DNA from: Prochlorococcus sp. AG-409-J16
Lineage (GTDB): Bacteria; Cyanobacteriota; Cyanobacteriia; PCC-6307; Cyanobiaceae
DNA: 64,000 nucleotides
Direction of reading: 5' to 3'
Assembly: GCA_003215655.1 (NCBI GenBank)
Contig: QCKB01000001.1
Location: 124,001-188,000, forward strand
The translations under genes and the position numbers were made by a program. Every line of letters begins with the position of its first letter. The first letter of the stretch is position 1. Positions 26,680 through 38,242 of the stretch are shown piece by piece. The notes beneath the pieces are model-generated. The model did not search any database. It was not told the origin of the DNA and worked only from the letters and a program-made list of their open reading frames with translations.

Positions 26680-27735
26680 TTAACCTTTTAAGCTAACTGA
26701 AGCTGTATCAATGTTACTCAACGCGTTAGTAACACGCTTAAAGTCAAAGCCCATAGAGCGTAAAGCGTGCCACAAGTGTCCCTGAATAAAGAAGAATCCA
26801 AGGTAGTAGTGAACATTGGTCAACCAAGCTCTGGATGTATGCAAACCATCTGAAAGGTCAGCAGTATCTACCCAGAAAGGAGAAATACTAAACTTAAGAT
26901 CAAGTACTTCACCAAAGAAACTTTCTGGATAAACAGTGGTATTTGTTGCACACCAGAAGGCTGCAACTATTGCCATCCAGCCGATACCAGCTAAAGACCA
27001 AGAAAGCACAGCCTCTGCTGATAGAAGTCCAGCTCCTTTGAATTTGGTGTAATCACCCACCTGTCTGGTAGCGATATGGAAAGCACCACCTGAAATCATT
27101 AAGAAGGCAAGGAAAGCATGCCCACCCATAACATCTTCCAGACTATTTATAGAAAGGAAGTCAAATTGATGGTTCCAGATATTCGCAAGGTTGAGATTGT
27201 ATTCAACTTGTCGAACTGCACCTTGAGCAGCATCGTAAATGCCGTGAATTCGTGCCCATTCAACAAACTGGATATTTGCAACACCCAAGAAAATCAAATG
27301 ATGGCCAAGAATAAAGGTCAAATTGTCGGGATTGTCCCATTCCAATTTAAATTTTCTAGCCTGAGCCACTTGTGAATCCTGCATGTCGCCTGTGAACAAC
27401 AAGGAATGCAGAAGACCACCGGCTCCATAAACCATTGAAGCTACGAGGTGGACTACAGCTACTGAAACGACAGCACTACCTCCTACCCAAACTCCAGCAT
27501 CATCAAATCCGATACCGAGTGCGGCTAAGTGGGGAAGAGCGATTAATGGCTGGTGCCCCATTGGCACCTCAGGGTTGTAGCGAGCGAGCTCAAAAAGGGT
27601 GAATGCACCTGCCCAGAAGGCAATCAGGCCTGTATGCGCTGCATGAGCAGCAATAAATTTGCCTGAACGGTTAGTCACCCCTGAATTACCAGCCCACCAC
27701 CCATAGGTGACGTCTGGGTTTCCATAGGTCTGCAT
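26680..27735 (-). CDS. pcb: Chlorophyll a/b light-harvesting antenna protein Pcb
   Basis: Pcb is the membrane antenna that binds divinyl chlorophyll a and b and supplies photosystem I or II in Prochlorococcus. It is a relative of CP43 and IsiA. The 351 residues show about six transmembrane helices with conserved His ligands (AAHAAHTGL, LPHLAALG, VVHLVASM, LGHHLIFLG, GGHAFLAF, NVHYYLGFFFIQGHLWHA). It starts MQTYGNPDVTYGWWAGN, as Pcb proteins do. It lacks the long lumenal loop of CP43, consistent with a peripheral antenna. It is monocistronic with a strong terminator and a long upstream leader, implying separate light- or nutrient-dependent control. Confidence 0.95.
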   Translation of the reverse strand: MQTYGNPDVTYGWWAGNSGVTNRSGKFIAAHAAHTGLIAFWAGAFTLFELARYNPEVPMGHQPLIALPHLAALGIGFDDAGVWVGGSAVVSVAVVHLVASMVYGAGGLLHSLLFTGDMQDSQVAQARKFKLEWDNPDNLTFILGHHLIFLGVANIQFVEWARIHGIYDAAQGAVRQVEYNLNLANIWNHQFDFLSINSLEDVMGGHAFLAFLMISGGAFHIATRQVGDYTKFKGAGLLSAEAVLSWSLAGIGWMAIVAAFWCATNTTVYPESFFGEVLDLKFSISPFWVDTADLSDGLHTSRAWLTNVHYYLGFFFIQGHLWHALRSMGFDFKRVTNALSNIDTASVSLKG

Positions 27736-30640: not shown

Positions 30641-31639
30641 TTGTCTGCACTATCGCGATGTCTACAGGAAGAGGCTGCTGCAATAAAAACTGCAGCAGAC
30701 CGTCTTAACAGTAGCGAGGTTGAAAAAGCTCTACAACTTCTTGAACAGTGCAGTGATCAACGTGCCAAGCTTGTAATTACAGGTGTAGGGAAGAGTGGAA
30801 TAGTTGCTAGAAAAATTGCTGCTACGTTTTCGTCTGTAGGGCTTATGGCTATATATCTAAATCCACTAGATGCTATGCATGGTGACCTAGGTGTCGTAGC
30901 TCCCGAAGATCTCTGTATGTTCATCTCAAATAGTGGACAAACCGAAGAGCTCGTAGAAGTAATGAACCAATTAAAGCGTCGAGGAAATTCAACTATTGCT
31001 ATGGTTGGGAATCAAGATTCAACTCTTAGTAGAAAAAGCGATATCGTTTTAATAGCTAGCGTAGATAAAGAACTTTGTCCTTTAAACCTTGCACCTACAG
31101 CTAGTACTGCAGTATGTATGGCAATTGGGGATGCCCTTGCGACAGTATGGATGGACCGAAGGGGAGTCTCGACGAATGATTTTGCAATTAATCATCCTGC
31201 TGGCTCGTTAGGAAAAAGACTAACGCTTACAGCTGGTGACATTATGATTCCAGAGAACAAACTAAGTTCTGTTGAACCGAATACGCCTTTTGAGGAGGTT
31301 ATTAGCGTACTTACTAAAGATGGAATCGGTACATGTTGGGTAGAAGATCCAAATTGCAAAGGGAAATTATTAGGTTTGATAACTGATGGTGATTTAAGAA
31401 GAGCTCTTAGAACGTTTAGTAAGAAAGAGTGGACAAGCTTATTTGCTAAAGAAATAATGACATCACAACCAGTCATAATTGAGAAGGATTTACTTGCAAT
31501 AAAAGCATTAGAGAATATGGAAAGGAACAAAGAGGGCAGAAAAGTAACTGTTCTTCCAGTAGTAATCAGGGAAAATTATGGCAATAAATTGATAGGCTTA
31601 TTAAGATTACATGATCTAATTGAAATGGGCTTAAAATGA
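30641..31639 (+). CDS. kdsD: Arabinose 5-phosphate isomerase (KpsF/GutQ/KdsD)
   Basis: KdsD converts D-ribulose 5-phosphate to D-arabinose 5-phosphate, the first committed step towards Kdo. The N-terminal SIS domain (about 30-165) has VITGVGKSGIVARKIAATFSSVG and ISNSGQTEELVEVM, and two CBS domains follow (about 205-330). Its 332 residues match the family. The start is the TTG at 30641: an in-frame stop at 30608 precludes an ATG. The kdsC start overlaps its end by four bases. A structured element lies in its leader. Confidence 0.92.
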   Translation: MSALSRCLQEEAAAIKTAADRLNSSEVEKALQLLEQCSDQRAKLVITGVGKSGIVARKIAATFSSVGLMAIYLNPLDAMHGDLGVVAPEDLCMFISNSGQTEELVEVMNQLKRRGNSTIAMVGNQDSTLSRKSDIVLIASVDKELCPLNLAPTASTAVCMAIGDALATVWMDRRGVSTNDFAINHPAGSLGKRLTLTAGDIMIPENKLSSVEPNTPFEEVISVLTKDGIGTCWVEDPNCKGKLLGLITDGDLRRALRTFSKKEWTSLFAKEIMTSQPVIIEKDLLAIKALENMERNKEGRKVTVLPVVIRENYGNKLIGLLRLHDLIEMGLK

Positions 31640-32226
31640 ATAATTTAATATCAAGATTAATATTAAGGACTAGAATTTTTAAACAATTAGATTGGATTGG
31701 TAAGGGAAATAAACTTAAGAATTTAAAGCTTTTAGCCCTTGATGTTGATGGTGTTCTAACTGATGGAGGTCTTTGGCTTGGGTTTCAAGATGAACCATTA
31801 AGAAGATTTGATGTTAAGGATGGTTTAGCTATTAGATTACTTAAAAATGAAGGTATAAAAATAGCATTTATAAGTGGAGGCAAGGGTATATCTATAGATA
31901 ATAGAGCAAAGCAACTATTTGTTGATTATTGTTTTACTGGAGTCAAAGATAAGTCAGAGATTATAAAAGAAATAATAAAAATAACTAACATACCTAGTAG
32001 TGAAATTGGATATGTAGGAGACGATTTAAATGATCTACCTGTGAAGGAGCATGTCTGTCTATTTATAGTTCCTGCAAACGCCCCCACATATATAAAAGAG
32101 AAATCAGACCTAATACTATCGAAGAAAGGTGGAGAAGGAGCAATCAAGGAGTTAGCAATAAAAATACTACGTGCCAGAAAAACATGGCTAACCATAACTA
32201 AATATGGTTGGAAAGATATAAACTGA
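31636..32226 (+). CDS. kdsC: Kdo-8-phosphate phosphatase
   Basis: KdsC removes phosphate from Kdo 8-phosphate to give Kdo. This 196-residue HAD C0-type phosphatase has the nucleophile motif LLALDVDGVLTDGG with D36 and D38, FISGGKG, and YVGDDLNDLPV for the magnesium site. The KGGEGAIKEL segment is characteristic of KdsC. It overlaps kdsD by ATGA, so the two are coupled. The first 30 residues are longer than in many homologues. kdsB is convergent. Confidence 0.92.
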   Translation: MNNLISRLILRTRIFKQLDWIGKGNKLKNLKLLALDVDGVLTDGGLWLGFQDEPLRRFDVKDGLAIRLLKNEGIKIAFISGGKGISIDNRAKQLFVDYCFTGVKDKSEIIKEIIKITNIPSSEIGYVGDDLNDLPVKEHVCLFIVPANAPTYIKEKSDLILSKKGGEGAIKELAIKILRARKTWLTITKYGWKDIN

Positions 32227-32272
32227 TATTTAATATCTCAGATTAAAATTATTTTTCTGATGTTAATTGAAG

Positions 32273-33079
32273 TTATACAATTGAGCGTGCTTTATCTAAT
32301 TGCTCCTTTGTATCGATAGAAAGAATATTATAATCTATCTTAAAAGTATTAATTTTATAACCATTCTCTAGCAACCTTAGTTGTTCAAGTTTTTCAGATT
32401 GTTCTAGAATCGAAGGAGACAATTTATTCCATTGTGATAAAAGCTTTGCATTATATCCATAAATACCTACATGACCCCAATATTTTGTATTTAAATGCCA
32501 TTGATTTACCGATACATCTCTTACATGGGGCAAAGGTGACCTAGAAAAATATATTGCAGATTGGTCGGATGCTAAGATAACCTTAACTACATTTGGGTCA
32601 TGGATAGATTTATCCTTTAAACTATAAATTGGTGTTATTACTGATGATTTAACTGGTTCACTTTTACACACAGATATTAAATCCTCTATAACCGTAGGAT
32701 CTAAAAAAGGCTGGTCACCTTGGACATTGATTATAAAAGTATCATTTAATCTTATATTATATTTATCTATATCAGAAAGTATCGTTTCATCATCCCAAGC
32801 CTTTGCAACTAATTTCCGACATACAGAAGCAATTCTATCAGTACCAGATTCAAAAGTAGATGAAGTTTGTATAGAAGTAAAACCCCATAATGCAGAATTA
32901 GAAATTAAAAGATCACTATCTGTAATTAAAACTGTATGAGTCACTTCTTTAACCATAGAGCATCTTTGCAAAACACGTTGTATCATTGGCATGCCTCCTA
33001 TATCAGCTAGTAATTTGTTTGGCAAGCGTTTTGATTCAAGTCTTGCAGGTACTGCAATGATAAATCTTTTATTCGTCAT
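32273..33079 (-). CDS. kdsB: CMP-Kdo synthetase
   Basis: KdsB activates Kdo with CTP to form CMP-Kdo, the sugar donor for surface glycans. The protein of 268 residues has the nucleotidyltransferase signature AVPARLESKRLPNKLLADIGG at residues 9-29, followed by NVQGDQPFL, YFSRSPLPH and GIYGYNAKLL. It is on the opposite strand to kdsD and kdsC and convergent with kdsC. The glycosyltransferase gene lies four bases upstream, so the two are probably cotranscribed. Confidence 0.92.
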   Translation of the reverse strand: MTNKRFIIAVPARLESKRLPNKLLADIGGMPMIQRVLQRCSMVKEVTHTVLITDSDLLISNSALWGFTSIQTSSTFESGTDRIASVCRKLVAKAWDDETILSDIDKYNIRLNDTFIINVQGDQPFLDPTVIEDLISVCKSEPVKSSVITPIYSLKDKSIHDPNVVKVILASDQSAIYFSRSPLPHVRDVSVNQWHLNTKYWGHVGIYGYNAKLLSQWNKLSPSILEQSEKLEQLRLLENGYKINTFKIDYNILSIDTKEQLDKARSIV

Positions 33080-33083
33080 AGTT

Positions 33084-33803
33084 TTAGTCCCATAACCTCA
33101 TTGAATCTTCTCTAGCTACAAACCAATCATAAGAATATTGAGATTGAAACATTCGTTGGTCTTTAAACCAAGGACCCCCTAAAGTCCAATGAACCAAAAG
33201 AGGATGAACAGAAAGTTTATTGAAATCTTCAGGTGATCGATCATCCACACCTATAAGATAATTCCACAAGCTAGAATCCAGTTCTCCTACTTCCTGATCA
33301 TTAGATAACCATTGAAATCTGTGGAGCTCCATAGGACTAGCTGAATTAACATACTCGAGAGTAAGTTGAGTGCATAGATTACAATTTAATAGCATCAATG
33401 AACTCCAATTTTTTCTAGGATATGAAGTCTGTATTTCGCCCTGGAATTTAGTATTCTCTTTTGGTTTATGATCGTGTTGAACACACATAAGAGGGTATCT
33501 ATCATCTCTGCATTTCCATAGTTCAGTAATATCTCCTAGGCTTAGCATGTCACAATCCATAAAAATTGCCCATCCCTTATATCCCATTAAGTATGGCACG
33601 AGGAATCTTGTAAAAGTAAATTCTGTACTCTGTTTTGGATCTTTATTTCTCCAATAAATACCATTCTTTTGCAATTGAGTTGTTATTAAAGGCGTTATTG
33701 ATAATGGTGTAGTGCTGTTTTGATATAAGCTATCAATTAAAACATTAGTTGCGGCCCTCTCCCTATAGTCATAACCTATAAAAATAGGTATAGGAGAGGC
33801 CAT
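33084..33803 (-). CDS. GT8-like glycosyltransferase or glycosyltransferase-like protein
   Basis: This protein starts IPIFIGYDYRERAA after the Met at 33803 (M16 of the open frame to 33848; I chose it because the frame's first 15 residues are poorly conserved-looking). The DxD motif is AIFMDCDMLSLGD. VHWTLGGPWFK near the C-terminus is a recurring motif of GT8-like glycosyltransferases in bacteria. It precedes kdsB by four bases, so it is part of the Kdo neighbourhood and may use or follow CMP-Kdo chemistry. The sugar donor is unknown. Confidence 0.7.
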   Translation of the reverse strand: MASPIPIFIGYDYRERAATNVLIDSLYQNSTTPLSITPLITTQLQKNGIYWRNKDPKQSTEFTFTRFLVPYLMGYKGWAIFMDCDMLSLGDITELWKCRDDRYPLMCVQHDHKPKENTKFQGEIQTSYPRKNWSSLMLLNCNLCTQLTLEYVNSASPMELHRFQWLSNDQEVGELDSSLWNYLIGVDDRSPEDFNKLSVHPLLVHWTLGGPWFKDQRMFQSQYSYDWFVAREDSMRLWD

Positions 33804-33962
33804 TCTGCTTGTCATATGAATAGTGGCTTTTATATAAAATATTTTCATTTTAGCAGATATGGGATTTAATTTAATTTACATAGCAATAAAATAAGATCAA
33901 AACCTAAATAGATGCTAATATAATGAAGCAATCCTTTGATAAAAAGTATTTATTAAGCTTGC

Positions 33963-33968
33963 TATAAT
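33963..33968 (+). promoter_or_regulatory. -10 element (TATAAT) before kdsA
   Basis: A perfect TATAAT lies 75 bases before the kdsA ATG. A possible -35 (TTGATA at 33936) is 21 bases away, too far for a standard sigma-70 promoter. The sequence CCTCCT immediately before the kdsA ATG resembles the 16S 3' end rather than a Shine-Dalgarno, so the start is not SD-led. Confidence 0.45.
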
Positions 33969-34042
33969 CAAGGAAAATTTTGTTAAATGGATTCGCCCTA
34001 TACAGAATCCTTCTACTAGCCTTAACAGATTAAAAACCTCCT

Positions 34043-34897
34043 ATGGAAACCAGAAAAAAAGTTTATCTAAAAAACATCATAATTGGCAACGAGCTGCCAT
34101 TTGTACTTATTGGAGGTCTAAATGTATTAGAAAGCGAAGGCCTGGCTATTGATGTAGCTGGACACTTTGCATCCGTATGCAAGGAATTAAAAATACCATA
34201 CATTTTCAAGGGTTCATATGATAAAGCTAATCGGAGCTCAGGTTCGTCATATCGCGGACCTGGACTCGAAAAAGGCCTGGAAATATTAAAAAAAATAAAG
34301 GAGATTTATGACATTCCAGTTCTTACTGATGTCCATACCGAAGAGCAGGCAAAGGCTGCTTCAAAGATATGTGATGTTATTCAATTGCCTGCATTTCTTG
34401 CTAGACAGACAGACCTAATAAAATCAATGTCCAATACTGATTGTGTTATCAATATAAAAAAGCCTCAATTTATTAGCCCATCACAGGTAACGAATATTGT
34501 CGATAAATTCTTATCATATAAGAAAGATCAAATTTTAATCTGTGAAAGGGGAACTAATTTCGGTTATGACAATCTAGTAGTAGATATGTTAGGCGTGGGA
34601 AAAATGAAAGAAGAATGTAATAACACTCCAATAATATTTGATGTAACGCATTCATTGCAATTTCGGAACAGTTCTGATGATGTTTCTAATGGGAGGAGGG
34701 CTCAGGTCCTTGAGCTTGCACGTGCTGGAATCTCTATAGGTATAGCAGGGTTATTTCTAGAGGCTCACCCTCACCCAGGTAAAGCCTTATGCGATGGACC
34801 AAGTGCTTTACCATTAAATCTTCTAAGACCGTTTCTGCAACAAATAAAGGAATTAGATGATCTAATTAAAAAGTTACCCAAATTAGAGATAGAATAA
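34043..34897 (+). CDS. kdsA: Kdo-8-phosphate synthase
   Basis: KdsA condenses phosphoenolpyruvate with arabinose 5-phosphate to make Kdo 8-phosphate. The TIM-barrel protein of 284 residues has GGLNVLESEG, FKGSYDKANRSSGSSYRGPGLEKGLEIL, LTDVHTEEQA, INIKKPQF, CERGTNFGYDNLVVDM and FDVTHSLQ, all family hallmarks, ending with AHPHPGKALCDGPSALPL. Together with the neighbouring kdsD, kdsC and kdsB it completes the CMP-Kdo pathway in this window. The start at ATG 34043 fits the family. Confidence 0.93.
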   Translation: METRKKVYLKNIIIGNELPFVLIGGLNVLESEGLAIDVAGHFASVCKELKIPYIFKGSYDKANRSSGSSYRGPGLEKGLEILKKIKEIYDIPVLTDVHTEEQAKAASKICDVIQLPAFLARQTDLIKSMSNTDCVINIKKPQFISPSQVTNIVDKFLSYKKDQILICERGTNFGYDNLVVDMLGVGKMKEECNNTPIIFDVTHSLQFRNSSDDVSNGRRAQVLELARAGISIGIAGLFLEAHPHPGKALCDGPSALPLNLLRPFLQQIKELDDLIKKLPKLEIE

Positions 34898-34945
34898 GAT
34901 TAACATGAAGCATTTAACTTTAAAAATTAGTATAAAGAACTAAAA

Positions 34946-36727
34946 ATGTGTGGAATTTTCTACGTTTTCTCAAAAAATCAAAAGCTGAACAAACAGACCC
35001 TAGAAGAAATAAGTGCAGAGTTTATAAAGCCTAGAGGCCCATGTAATCAATCAATATATTCGTCCAAAAACGAATATGCATATCAATCTACACTTGCAAT
35101 TCAATCTGCTGATAAGCTAATAAAGAAAAATAATAATTTAGATGAAAAATCTTTTATTCTATATAATGGGGAAATATATTCAGATTCTGAACAAAACAAA
35201 TTTACAAGAGATACTATAGATACTGATTATTTATACAAAGCTTCTAACAACAATTTACTAAAACAATATATAAAGGCTTGCGACGGAATGTATGCCCTGG
35301 CAGAAATCAAATCAATCGCCTCAGATAGTAAATCGTACGAACGTTCTATATCAATTTACAGAGATCCAACAGGTGAGAAACATCTTTATTATTGGATCAG
35401 TAATGATTATATAGTTTTATCATCTGTACCAGGTTCTATTGCCTTATTCATATCATCCTTAAATAGGCTTGAGCTTGATCTTAATCAACTAAAAGAATAT
35501 ATAAGTAAAAGACACTTTATCAGTCCATTAAAAGTTCCTTTTAAAGGTATAAGGCAATTATTACCTGGTCATACATTGAATTTCAATACAGATACATGGG
35601 AAGTTAATGGCCAAAATCAGTTTATAACTAATCTCGATTTAATAAATGAAAACACCTATAAAGAATTGAAAGGCATAAGTTATACATCTTATTTAGACAG
35701 GCTAGAGTTTGAATTAATTAAGTCATTACATTCACAAGAGTCAGTCAACAACACCAAATCAGCTGGTTTAACTATTAGTGGTGGTATTGATTCATCCTTA
35801 ACTAGTGCATTAATATTGAATCATATGGAAAATCAATACGAATCATTTACATGTAGATTTGGTGATAAAGATAAAACTGCCTTAAAGGGAAATGAAATAA
35901 GTGTTGGTATTGGTTGCAAAAAACATAATTGGGTAGATATTAACTTAGAGAAATATCATGAATCTCTAATAAGATCAATTAAACTACTTGCTTCACCAGT
36001 ACATAGCCATTCACACCCATCTTCACACCTTTTAGCCAAACAAGTTTCATCTAACGGACATAAGGTCCTATATGGAGGAGAAGGTGCCGATGAACTATTC
36101 CTAGGTTATCATACCTATATTGAAATACTTAATAGAATTTCTATATCTGAAGAAACCACTTCAGATTACACTTGTAATATAAGGACGTTCGATAATAAAC
36201 AAAGCCATAGCGAAACAGACATTTACATAAAAGATTGCTTCCAAAAAGCCTATGAGATATTTAATAATACATATAACTCAAATAAGTTATCAGAAGTAAA
36301 GTCAAATGCATATTGTGATTATTTTGTTCAACTGCCTATGGTAGGACTGAGCGCCTGTGACACAATCATTTCTGATTGCAGTGTAGAAGCAAGAACTATG
36401 TTTACTAGAAAAAATATTATAGAATTCGCTCTTAACTCTCCTGTTGAATATCTACTCGGCAATTCAACGCAAGAGAAACTATCAAAATTCAAGTCAACCC
36501 CAAAGAATCCTCTGAATAAACTTTATACTAAGTATATTTCAAATGATATCGACTCAAAGATAGGTTTTTCTGGCTATCCAAATGAGACTTCTAAATTCCT
36601 TGGGGATTTAAATACCTGGAGAGTATTTGATCTATTACCAGATCTTAGAAGCCAATGGAAACATTCAAGAGCACTTGACTGGAAAATCATAAATTGTGAG
36701 TGGTTTTTAAATATATGGGATATCTAG
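34946..36727 (+). CDS. Asparagine-synthase-like glutamine amidotransferase
   Basis: This 593-residue protein has an N-terminal class II glutamine amidotransferase domain with Cys2 (MCGIF), followed by YNGEIYS and RDPTGEKHLYY, and a C-terminal ATP-pyrophosphatase synthetase domain with SGGIDSS at 278-284 and GGEGADELFLGYH. It resembles AsnB and its sugar-amidating relatives. It lies 48 bases after kdsA on the same strand, so amidation of a surface sugar is as plausible as asparagine synthesis. No second asnB is seen nearby to help decide. The shared hairpin after its stop also ends the opposing 6S RNA. Confidence 0.85.
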   Translation: MCGIFYVFSKNQKLNKQTLEEISAEFIKPRGPCNQSIYSSKNEYAYQSTLAIQSADKLIKKNNNLDEKSFILYNGEIYSDSEQNKFTRDTIDTDYLYKASNNNLLKQYIKACDGMYALAEIKSIASDSKSYERSISIYRDPTGEKHLYYWISNDYIVLSSVPGSIALFISSLNRLELDLNQLKEYISKRHFISPLKVPFKGIRQLLPGHTLNFNTDTWEVNGQNQFITNLDLINENTYKELKGISYTSYLDRLEFELIKSLHSQESVNNTKSAGLTISGGIDSSLTSALILNHMENQYESFTCRFGDKDKTALKGNEISVGIGCKKHNWVDINLEKYHESLIRSIKLLASPVHSHSHPSSHLLAKQVSSNGHKVLYGGEGADELFLGYHTYIEILNRISISEETTSDYTCNIRTFDNKQSHSETDIYIKDCFQKAYEIFNNTYNSNKLSEVKSNAYCDYFVQLPMVGLSACDTIISDCSVEARTMFTRKNIIEFALNSPVEYLLGNSTQEKLSKFKSTPKNPLNKLYTKYISNDIDSKIGFSGYPNETSKFLGDLNTWRVFDLLPDLRSQWKHSRALDWKIINCEWFLNIWDI

Positions 36728-36757
36728 TAGTCAAAACTAATTTAAACCTTTATTTGC

Positions 36758-36793
36758 AATGCTATTTTTTATATGTTTTATAAAAATAGCATT
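36758..36793. terminator. Bidirectional terminator between asparagine-synthase-like gene and 6S RNA
   Basis: AATGCTATTTTT at 36758-36769 is the exact reverse complement of AAAAATAGCATT at 36782-36793. The stem itself carries the A/T-runs, so it can act for the asparagine-synthase-like gene and, on the other strand, for the RNA gene to its right. Confidence 0.7.
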
Positions 36794-36996
36794 AGTTTGA
36801 CTCATGGCCACGACGGGCGAACCCTTATGTCGTAGCCAATTAACGAGTCAAAACCACCATGCCGTGCGAGCCCCAGTGTTCGACCTGGAATGTCCAGAAG
36901 AGGATTCAAAGTGAGGATTCGTTTCCGGCTCATTTATGCCGGTTTACTGCACCTTCACGACAGTCTCCTCATGTCGAAAGAGAGTCAGATCAGAGC
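36794..36996 (-). ncRNA. ssaA: 6S RNA (candidate)
   Basis: This GC-rich 200-base stretch in AT-rich intergenic DNA folds into one long rod. Nested pairs are 36798-36803 with 36982-36987, 36811-36814 with 36973-36976, 36828-36833 with 36957-36962, 36851-36855 with 36941-36945, 36868-36872 with 36927-36931, and a terminal hairpin 36885-36889 with 36893-36897. The widest unpaired section, 36834-36850 against 36946-36956, sits where the 6S central bubble would. A sigma-70-like promoter and the downstream hairpin give about 200 bases, close to the 185 of known cyanobacterial 6S RNA. My memory that cyanobacterial 6S genes lie by purK supports this. I could not search Rfam, and the strand rests on the promoter. 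Confidence 0.68.
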
Positions 36997-37000
36997 ACTA

Positions 37001-37030
37001 GAGATAGGCTGTCACCAACAAGGTAGTCAA
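37001..37030 (-). promoter_or_regulatory. Sigma-70-like promoter of the 6S RNA candidate
   Basis: On the minus strand TTGACT (37030-37025) is followed after 18 bases by TATCTC (37006-37001), placing the start of transcription near 36996. The -35 matches five of six consensus bases and the -10 about three or four. It lies between the purK stop and the RNA. Confidence 0.5.
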
Positions 37031-37045
37031 GATTAATATTAGTAC

Positions 37046-38242
37046 CTATCCATCAAAACTTGTTGGCCAAATCGAGCGAATCAAACTTAATGCCCTATCT
37101 GCCTCATCCTTTCTAGAAATAAAATCTTTACCCTCAAGTAAAACTGTAACGTGACCAAGCTTTCGTCCAGGTGTTTCTTTCTCCTTGCCGTACCAATGTA
37201 TAGAAAATTTTTCATGTCTTTGCAGCATATCAATTCGATCTTCTATCGATACTTCAAATTTATTAGAAAGCCCTAATAAGTTAACCATTAAGGCACCAGG
37301 TGCAATTAATTCTGGGCTAGGAACTGGAAGATCAGCCGTTATACAAATTTGTTGATCAAATTGACTACTAGTGCATGCTTCTATTGAAAAGTGAGCGGAG
37401 TTATGAGTCCTTGGTGCTATTTCATTTACCATTAAACCTTGTATTCCATAAAAGAATTCAACAGCAAGGACTCCCTCATAATTGAGCTTAGTTACAAGGG
37501 ATGCAGCAATGTTGTATGCAGTAACCTCTACTGATGAATGAACAGCTGCAGGTGCAATTACCCAATCACATATTTGATTCTTCTGACAAGTTTCTACTAA
37601 AGGAAAACTTCTTACTCTTCCTGACCTATCACGACTTACTACAATTGCTAATTCCTTTTGATATGGAACCCATTTCTCTATAAACCATCTGTCACATTCT
37701 TCGGAGTTAAGAAGTTTTTCTAACTCTTTAATATTATTTATCACCTTATTACCTTTTCCATCATAACCTCCATTACTCAATTTTGCCATAACAGGGAAGG
37801 TCCAATCATTAGGGAGTCGTTTATTTGTTATTTTCAAATCTCTTAGAGCTACCCAATCAGGTCCTAAAATATCTAGCTCCTTGAGCAATTTTCTCTGATT
37901 AATTTTATCTACAAGCAATTCTAGAGATGAAATGGAGGGCTGAAAATTATGATATTGTTTTTCTAATAGTAGTAACTGTTTAACATCAATCCATTCATTT
38001 TCAAATGTCACTCCATTAGTATTTTCTACTAAATTTTTTGTAGCGCTAGCATCAACTGGGTCTGCAAAAATAACCTTATAGGCTTTTTTTGCTGCAGGGT
38101 CCTCTGATGAGCCTGTCTGGACGATAACATTAACGTTACGTTTGCTAGCAGCATCAACCATCATCTGCGCCAATTGTCCACCACCCACCACTCCAATTAC
38201 TGGGCTTACAAGTTTGTTATCGGTATTTAAGTGGTTGATCAT
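37046..38242 (-). CDS. purK: 5-(Carboxyamino)imidazole ribonucleotide synthase
   Basis: PurK uses ATP and bicarbonate to convert AIR to N5-CAIR in purine synthesis. It is an ATP-grasp protein of 398 residues starting with a Rossmann-like N-terminus (VIGVVGGGQLAQMMVDAASKRN), then MAKLSNGGYDGKGN for ATP binding, a central EKWVPYQKELAIVVSR block, and GVLAVEFFYGIQGLMVNEIAPRTHNSAHFSIEA. The length fits. The 6S RNA candidate follows on the same strand. The divergent gene upstream is aroB. Confidence 0.94.
   Translation of the reverse strand: MINHLNTDNKLVSPVIGVVGGGQLAQMMVDAASKRNVNVIVQTGSSEDPAAKKAYKVIFADPVDASATKNLVENTNGVTFENEWIDVKQLLLLEKQYHNFQPSISSLELLVDKINQRKLLKELDILGPDWVALRDLKITNKRLPNDWTFPVMAKLSNGGYDGKGNKVINNIKELEKLLNSEECDRWFIEKWVPYQKELAIVVSRDRSGRVRSFPLVETCQKNQICDWVIAPAAVHSSVEVTAYNIAASLVTKLNYEGVLAVEFFYGIQGLMVNEIAPRTHNSAHFSIEACTSSQFDQQICITADLPVPSPELIAPGALMVNLLGLSNKFEVSIEDRIDMLQRHEKFSIHWYGKEKETPGRKLGHVTVLLEGKDFISRKDEADRALSLIRSIWPTSFDG

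Follow-up and report, generated by a model that had tools for sequence, protein, structure and literature searches.

The gap between purK and an asparagine-synthase-like gene in Prochlorococcus sp. AG-409-J16 raises the question of which RNA is encoded there and what role its 3' end plays. We addressed it in a 64,000-nucleotide stretch of the genome (contig QCKB01000001.1, positions 124,001 to 188,000; hereafter the window). The gap encodes, on the minus strand at 36847–37032, the 6S RNA known in cyanobacteria as 6Sa or Yfr7, and the 3' end of the same gene appears to serve in relatives as the insertion site of mobile elements; we put the probability of this overall explanation at roughly 0.94. 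The gene itself is already known and its annotation is routine.

A sequence-only reading of the window had proposed a 6S RNA at 36794–36996, bounded by a promoter and a hairpin, and had named a search with Rfam family RF00013 as its check. Searched over the whole window, that model matches the minus strand with 81 bits (gathering score 46.4, E 2e-14), in an alignment that runs from 37032 to 36847 and covers model positions 1–187 of 187. No other family reaches threshold when the window is scanned against Rfam, and within the gap the remaining families give chance-level matches only. A search of the whole genome finds this single 6S RNA gene, and an RF00013 match is present in 52 of 60 searched genomes. 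The gene lies 14 nt beyond the end of purK, which is upstream of it, and the purK–6S order is also found in relatives. The purK neighbourhood, which had served the sequence-only reading as a pointer, agrees with the published locus: Yfr7 stands behind purK in MED4, SS120, MIT 9313 and WH 8102, its 5' ends were mapped in MED4 and SS120, and its half-life exceeds 1 h (PMC1242208). In sequence and structure model, purK synteny, length and single copy, the gene is without difference from cyanobacterial 6Sa/Yfr7/ssrS. The E. coli 6S RNA, the mechanistic prototype, belongs to the same Rfam family and shares the long rod with a central bubble, but its genomic neighbours differ.

The identity of the RNA thus proposed stands, and so does the description of the gap as GC-rich and structured (50% GC; 36847–37032 folds better than shuffles, z = −2.87); its boundaries have to be moved. 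A model in which the RNA comprises 36794–36996, its rod takes in the downstream hairpin and a promoter occupies 37001–37030 is highly improbable. The stretch 36794–36996 also folds (z = −2.86), and high-light strains have an additional, longer 6S species, but the 187-position alignment requires 36997–37032 for its closing stem, the 3' hairpin folds and covaries alone, and low-light strains give a single mature Northern signal of ~175–185 nt (both strain observations from PMC1242208). The start of the RNA lies about 36 bases upstream of the earlier one, and 36794–36846, the last 53 bases of the earlier extent, belong to a separate hairpin. The coordinates to be used should be those of the Rfam match. 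For the mature ends we relied on SS120, where Yfr7 was mapped to 924466–924640 (PMC1242208) and the Rfam match spans 924462–924642 (corresponding coordinates in genome G010).

The promoter is affected likewise. What had been placed at 37001–37030 as a sigma-70-like element is the 5'-terminal 30 bases of the RNA; scanning 36600–37300 for the consensus finds no sigma-70-type promoter. The TAATAT box directly behind the purK stop codon is likely the −10 element of the 6S promoter, judging from boxes of the CTTAAATT/ACTAAATT type at the equivalent position in relatives, and transcription would start from it.

The fold is that of the Rfam alignment and not the six-helix rod drawn by hand in the sequence-only reading. 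The bubble had been assigned to 36834–36850 against 36946–36956; in the Rfam fold it is formed by 36986–36971 and 36899–36887, and 36834–36850 pairs with ~36797–36816 in the separate downstream hairpin. In an alignment of 20 picocyanobacterial 6S sequences, 22 pairs change on both sides (0 of 500 shuffles yield as many), and an independent RNAalifold analysis counts 24 such pairs. The closing stem, central bubble and terminal stem are conserved with compensatory changes, and an inner helix, helix 4, is poorly kept (44% paired). RNAalifold also places a small hairpin in the 3' strand of the bubble.

On the opposite strand, a 55-amino-acid open reading frame (ORF; 36859–37026 plus) could be taken for an unannotated protein gene, and similar ORFs have been annotated opposite yfr7 in MIT 9313 and WH 8102. 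We give this almost no credence: the frame has no Pfam match, conservation tracks RNA pairing, and the published work detected the opposite strand only (PMC1242208). Lying antisense to 6S, the frame is the same trap that lies behind the spurious MIT 9313 and WH 8102 annotations.

The function of such an RNA is well described. 6S RNA mimics an open promoter and binds RNA polymerase carrying the housekeeping sigma factor; the copying of a short pRNA from it by the polymerase leads to its release. By homology, the window's RNA would act in this standard way. In Synechocystis, a 6S deletion strain has been characterised physiologically, and the 6S RNA binds E. coli polymerase in vitro, inhibits transcription and templates pRNA (PMC5721685).

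Directly behind the RNA, at the end of the 6S closing stem and abutting the RNA 3' end, stands a trailer hairpin. Its two stacked helices, outer and inner, are each followed by a bulge and lead up to a GGG/CCC tip; the bulges are confined to the 5' side and the 3' arm is unbroken. The stretch 36750–36850 folds with z = −7.7. Across 16 sequences, 98.4% of the pair cells remain paired and both-side changes occur in 12 of 20 pairs (0 of 500 shuffles), and the pairing signal is lost when the partner is shifted by 1–3 columns. A model of the hairpin (R1), trained solely on 6S-adjacent hairpins, scores 69.6 bits here, its only match in the strain's own genome; a genome-wide repeat was thereby rejected in favour of a single copy. 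TTTT follows the hairpin in several relatives, and several relatives outside the hairpin family carry ordinary hairpins with U-runs at the same place. The mature 6S RNA of low-light strains leaves no room for the hairpin, which therefore is probably removed from the RNA or serves as a terminator; it would either end transcription or mark the 3' end for trimming. The published 6Sa/Yfr7 account, in the part available, makes no mention of it (PMC1242208), and the covarying hairpin is new as far as the literature examined goes.

The role of this 3' end as a landing site emerges from relatives. In Prochlorococcus and Synechococcus relatives, reached through searches for the 6S tail with hairpin, the tail is directly repeated 0.3–7.2 kb downstream. 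In genome G021 the last 49 nt of 6S, at 96% identity, recur together with the hairpin 3,410 bp downstream, adjoining an N-terminal relic of a tyrosine recombinase (PF20172, E 5e-4). In G167 an intact tyrosine recombinase of 431 amino acids (PF00589, E 2.7e-7) stands 54 nt away from a tail copy. The order in G108 is purK, 6S, 7.2 kb of DNA, the integrase, a second 6S tail (96% identical to that of a related 6S across 54 nt) and the gene that in relatives comes immediately after 6S. The empty site for this 7.2-kb element is found in 19 relatives, in which the alignment of the 6S tail continues into the same right flank (19 counts alignments that reach the flanking gene; 28 if tail-only matches are included).

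Relatives of the G167 recombinase were sought in 400 genomes. Of 14 integrases with at least ~30% identity, 11 have a tail copy on the opposite strand, 44–200 nt from their start; of 8 distant integrases none has one, save for one 13-nt chance match. Both ends of the elements carry paired 10-bp repeats ~13 bp apart, which differ in sequence between elements (GGTCCTACCA in G108, TGCAGGACCA in G233) at the same spacing, as expected of arm-type integrase sites. The displaced tail of G167 (L158:1501–1930) is flanked by two types of arm repeat, with those of the other type (TGCAGAACCA) after it, which suggests a tandem arrangement with a second element. The repeated tails might also stem from ordinary duplication or homologous recombination rather than from site-specific integration, and some copies do lack an integrase (L159, and L156 at 83% identity); given the fixed integrase–tail geometry, the empty sites and the constantly spaced arm-like repeats at both ends, we regard such an origin as very unlikely.

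Genome comparison thus shows the 3' end of the relatives' 6S gene, with the hairpin where present, to be the predicted attB of elements with a dedicated tyrosine recombinase. Integration would duplicate the 6S tail, so that the RNA gene stays whole and the displaced tail is left beside the integrase. Among the cargo or neighbour genes are M28 and M48 peptidases, a PrsW-type protease and, in one case, a DnaB-like helicase; a Synechococcus-like genome adds a T7-type RNA polymerase.

Elements at the 3' ends of tRNA and tmRNA genes, including the tycheposons of Prochlorococcus, are alike in their tyrosine recombinase, their duplicated RNA-gene 3' end and cargo of the kind that, in one case here, includes a DnaB-like helicase. 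The tycheposons are reported at seven tRNA genes (PMC10872708). The 6S-tail elements differ in their attachment site: the 6S tail stands at their end, and no tRNA gene was found in the searched flanks, within ~1.5 kb of the integrases. The literature examined, which leaves aside the main tycheposon paper and includes Axmann et al. 2007 through citations (PMC2662882), holds no report of the 6S RNA 3' end as an attachment site, and as far as this literature goes its use for integration in relatives is new.

A phage or viral origin was considered and rejected. No phage record contains the tail, and the 13 matches that a 17-base tail pattern has in viral contigs are attributable to chance. No viral contig matches the integrase; the only, distant, phage integrase is that of Planktothrix phage PaV-LD (27%). 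A sequence search found no solved structure for the integrase.

Several observations weigh against our interpretation of the locus. The attachment role is read from relatives and not from the window strain: the window's 6S has neither a second tail nor arm repeats, and its genome has no relative of the 6S-tail integrase, for which reason we take its attachment site to be empty or decayed. Many of the relatives are incomplete single-cell genomes. The window's trailer hairpin, a strong stem lacking a U-run, is an imperfect fit to a plain intrinsic terminator.

Should the interpretation hold, the gene of a global transcription regulator joins the small set of RNA-gene landing sites for mobile elements. 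This would help to explain the strain-to-strain variability of the DNA behind 6S, insertion could reshape the 3' end of the RNA, and a testable route would be at hand for cargo movement among streamlined ocean cyanobacteria.

A further link leads to the pcb antenna genes. Outside 6S, nearly all matches of model R1 fall upstream of pcb genes, on the strand opposite to pcb, where a block of ~37 nt stands at a nearly fixed ~44 nt before the start of most pcb genes examined; in the strain's own genome one pcb gene (L102/L154) has it. The 20 nt beside the block are similar to the 6S tail, with 11.9 of 20 positions matching as against 5.1 in shuffled sequences (0 of 5,000), a figure that overstates independence in that the copies are paralogous and a related model served to find them. 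The pcb genes also hold the same position relative to the 6S-like tail as the integrases do. The block may derive from a 6S-targeting element as a relic, act as a shared regulatory sequence or belong to a regulatory RNA pair. Attachment scars were not adopted as the main account of the pcb-linked copies, since the distance from the block to the pcb gene is fixed in most cases and the 3' arm of the hairpin is mostly lacking.

The near-confinement of the R1 matches outside 6S to pcb leaders, together with the common block and its fixed distance, would also suit a 3' hairpin that is no terminator but the source of a distinct, trans-acting small RNA with complementarity to pcb mRNA leaders. We consider this unlikely: any inverted shared ancestry would yield complementarity, the block occurs at pcb in genomes whose 6S has no clear hairpin match, and in the window's genome the complementarity is only partial. 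We hold to be probable a combined account for marine picocyanobacteria in which the 6S gene is the attachment site of its own integrase and element family, each integration rebuilds its 3' end and, in low-light lineages, also the hairpin, and displaced tails perhaps contributed the pcb upstream region. Its attachment-site half is well supported; the passage of displaced 6S tails to the upstream region of the multicopy pcb genes is speculative.

The window itself contains a pcb-type chlorophyll-binding antenna gene (26680–27735 minus), one of four close homologues in the genome, whose leader lacks a clear copy of the block. Weak, sub-threshold Rfam matches to IsrR, the isiA antisense RNA, fall inside pcb genes (L095, L099, L094 and L098) and probably reflect the homology of the isiA and pcb proteins.

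Table 1. Features of the 6S RNA locus in the window, and related features in the same genome and in relatives
Feature	Location	Strand	Basis
6S RNA gene (ssrS / yfr7 / 6Sa)	36847..37032	-	RF00013 full-length match, sole genome copy
Predicted mature 6S RNA, ~180 nt	36851..37030	-	analogy with SS120
Central bubble, 5' strand (GACTCTCTTTCGACAT)	36971..36986	-	Rfam alignment mapped onto window
Central bubble, 3' strand (TTCTGGACATTCC)	36887..36899	-	Rfam alignment mapped onto window
3' trailer hairpin	36794..36851	-	fold, covariation, model R1
-10-like TAATAT directly behind purK stop codon	37036..37041	-	read from sequence
purK, 5-(carboxyamino)imidazole ribonucleotide synthase	37046..38242	-	TIGR01161 343.6 bits (cut-off 318.4); NF004679 430.8 bits (cut-off 326)
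AT-rich palindrome between convergent 6S and asparagine-synthase-like units	36758..36793	.	fold analysis
Asparagine-synthase-like amidotransferase, convergent with 6S	34946..36727	+	PF00733 E 1.4e-22; below TIGR01536 cut-off
Tyrosine-recombinase element at 6S 3' end	L206:2426-9881 (G108)		displaced tail, arm-like 10-bp repeats
Tyrosine-recombinase element at 6S 3' end	L210:5031-8083 (G233)		displaced tail, arm-like 10-bp repeats
Tyrosine-recombinase element at 6S 3' end	L155:2340-5987 (G021)		displaced tail, arm-like 10-bp repeats
Tyrosine-recombinase element at 6S 3' end	L158:1782-3238 (G167)		displaced tail, arm-like 10-bp repeats
Tyrosine-recombinase element at 6S 3' end	L205:1692-7480 (G131)		displaced tail, arm-like 10-bp repeats
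Tyrosine-recombinase element at 6S 3' end	L213:5488-6861 (G295)		displaced tail, arm-like 10-bp repeats
6S-tail/hairpin-like block before pcb	L154:2238-2322 (own genome, contig C6); L135, L138, L094, others		

The AT-rich hairpin that the sequence-only reading had noted at the far end of the gap is real, and this palindrome is possibly a shared terminator of the two convergent units. Directly downstream of 6S, the window carries a cluster (30641–36727) of kdsD, kdsC, kdsB and kdsA-like genes for Kdo synthesis, a family-8 glycosyltransferase and the asparagine-synthase-like gene; kdsA and the glycosyltransferase were confirmed by profile, and kdsB, kdsC and kdsD were recognised by eye. The cluster is possibly a surface-polysaccharide island.
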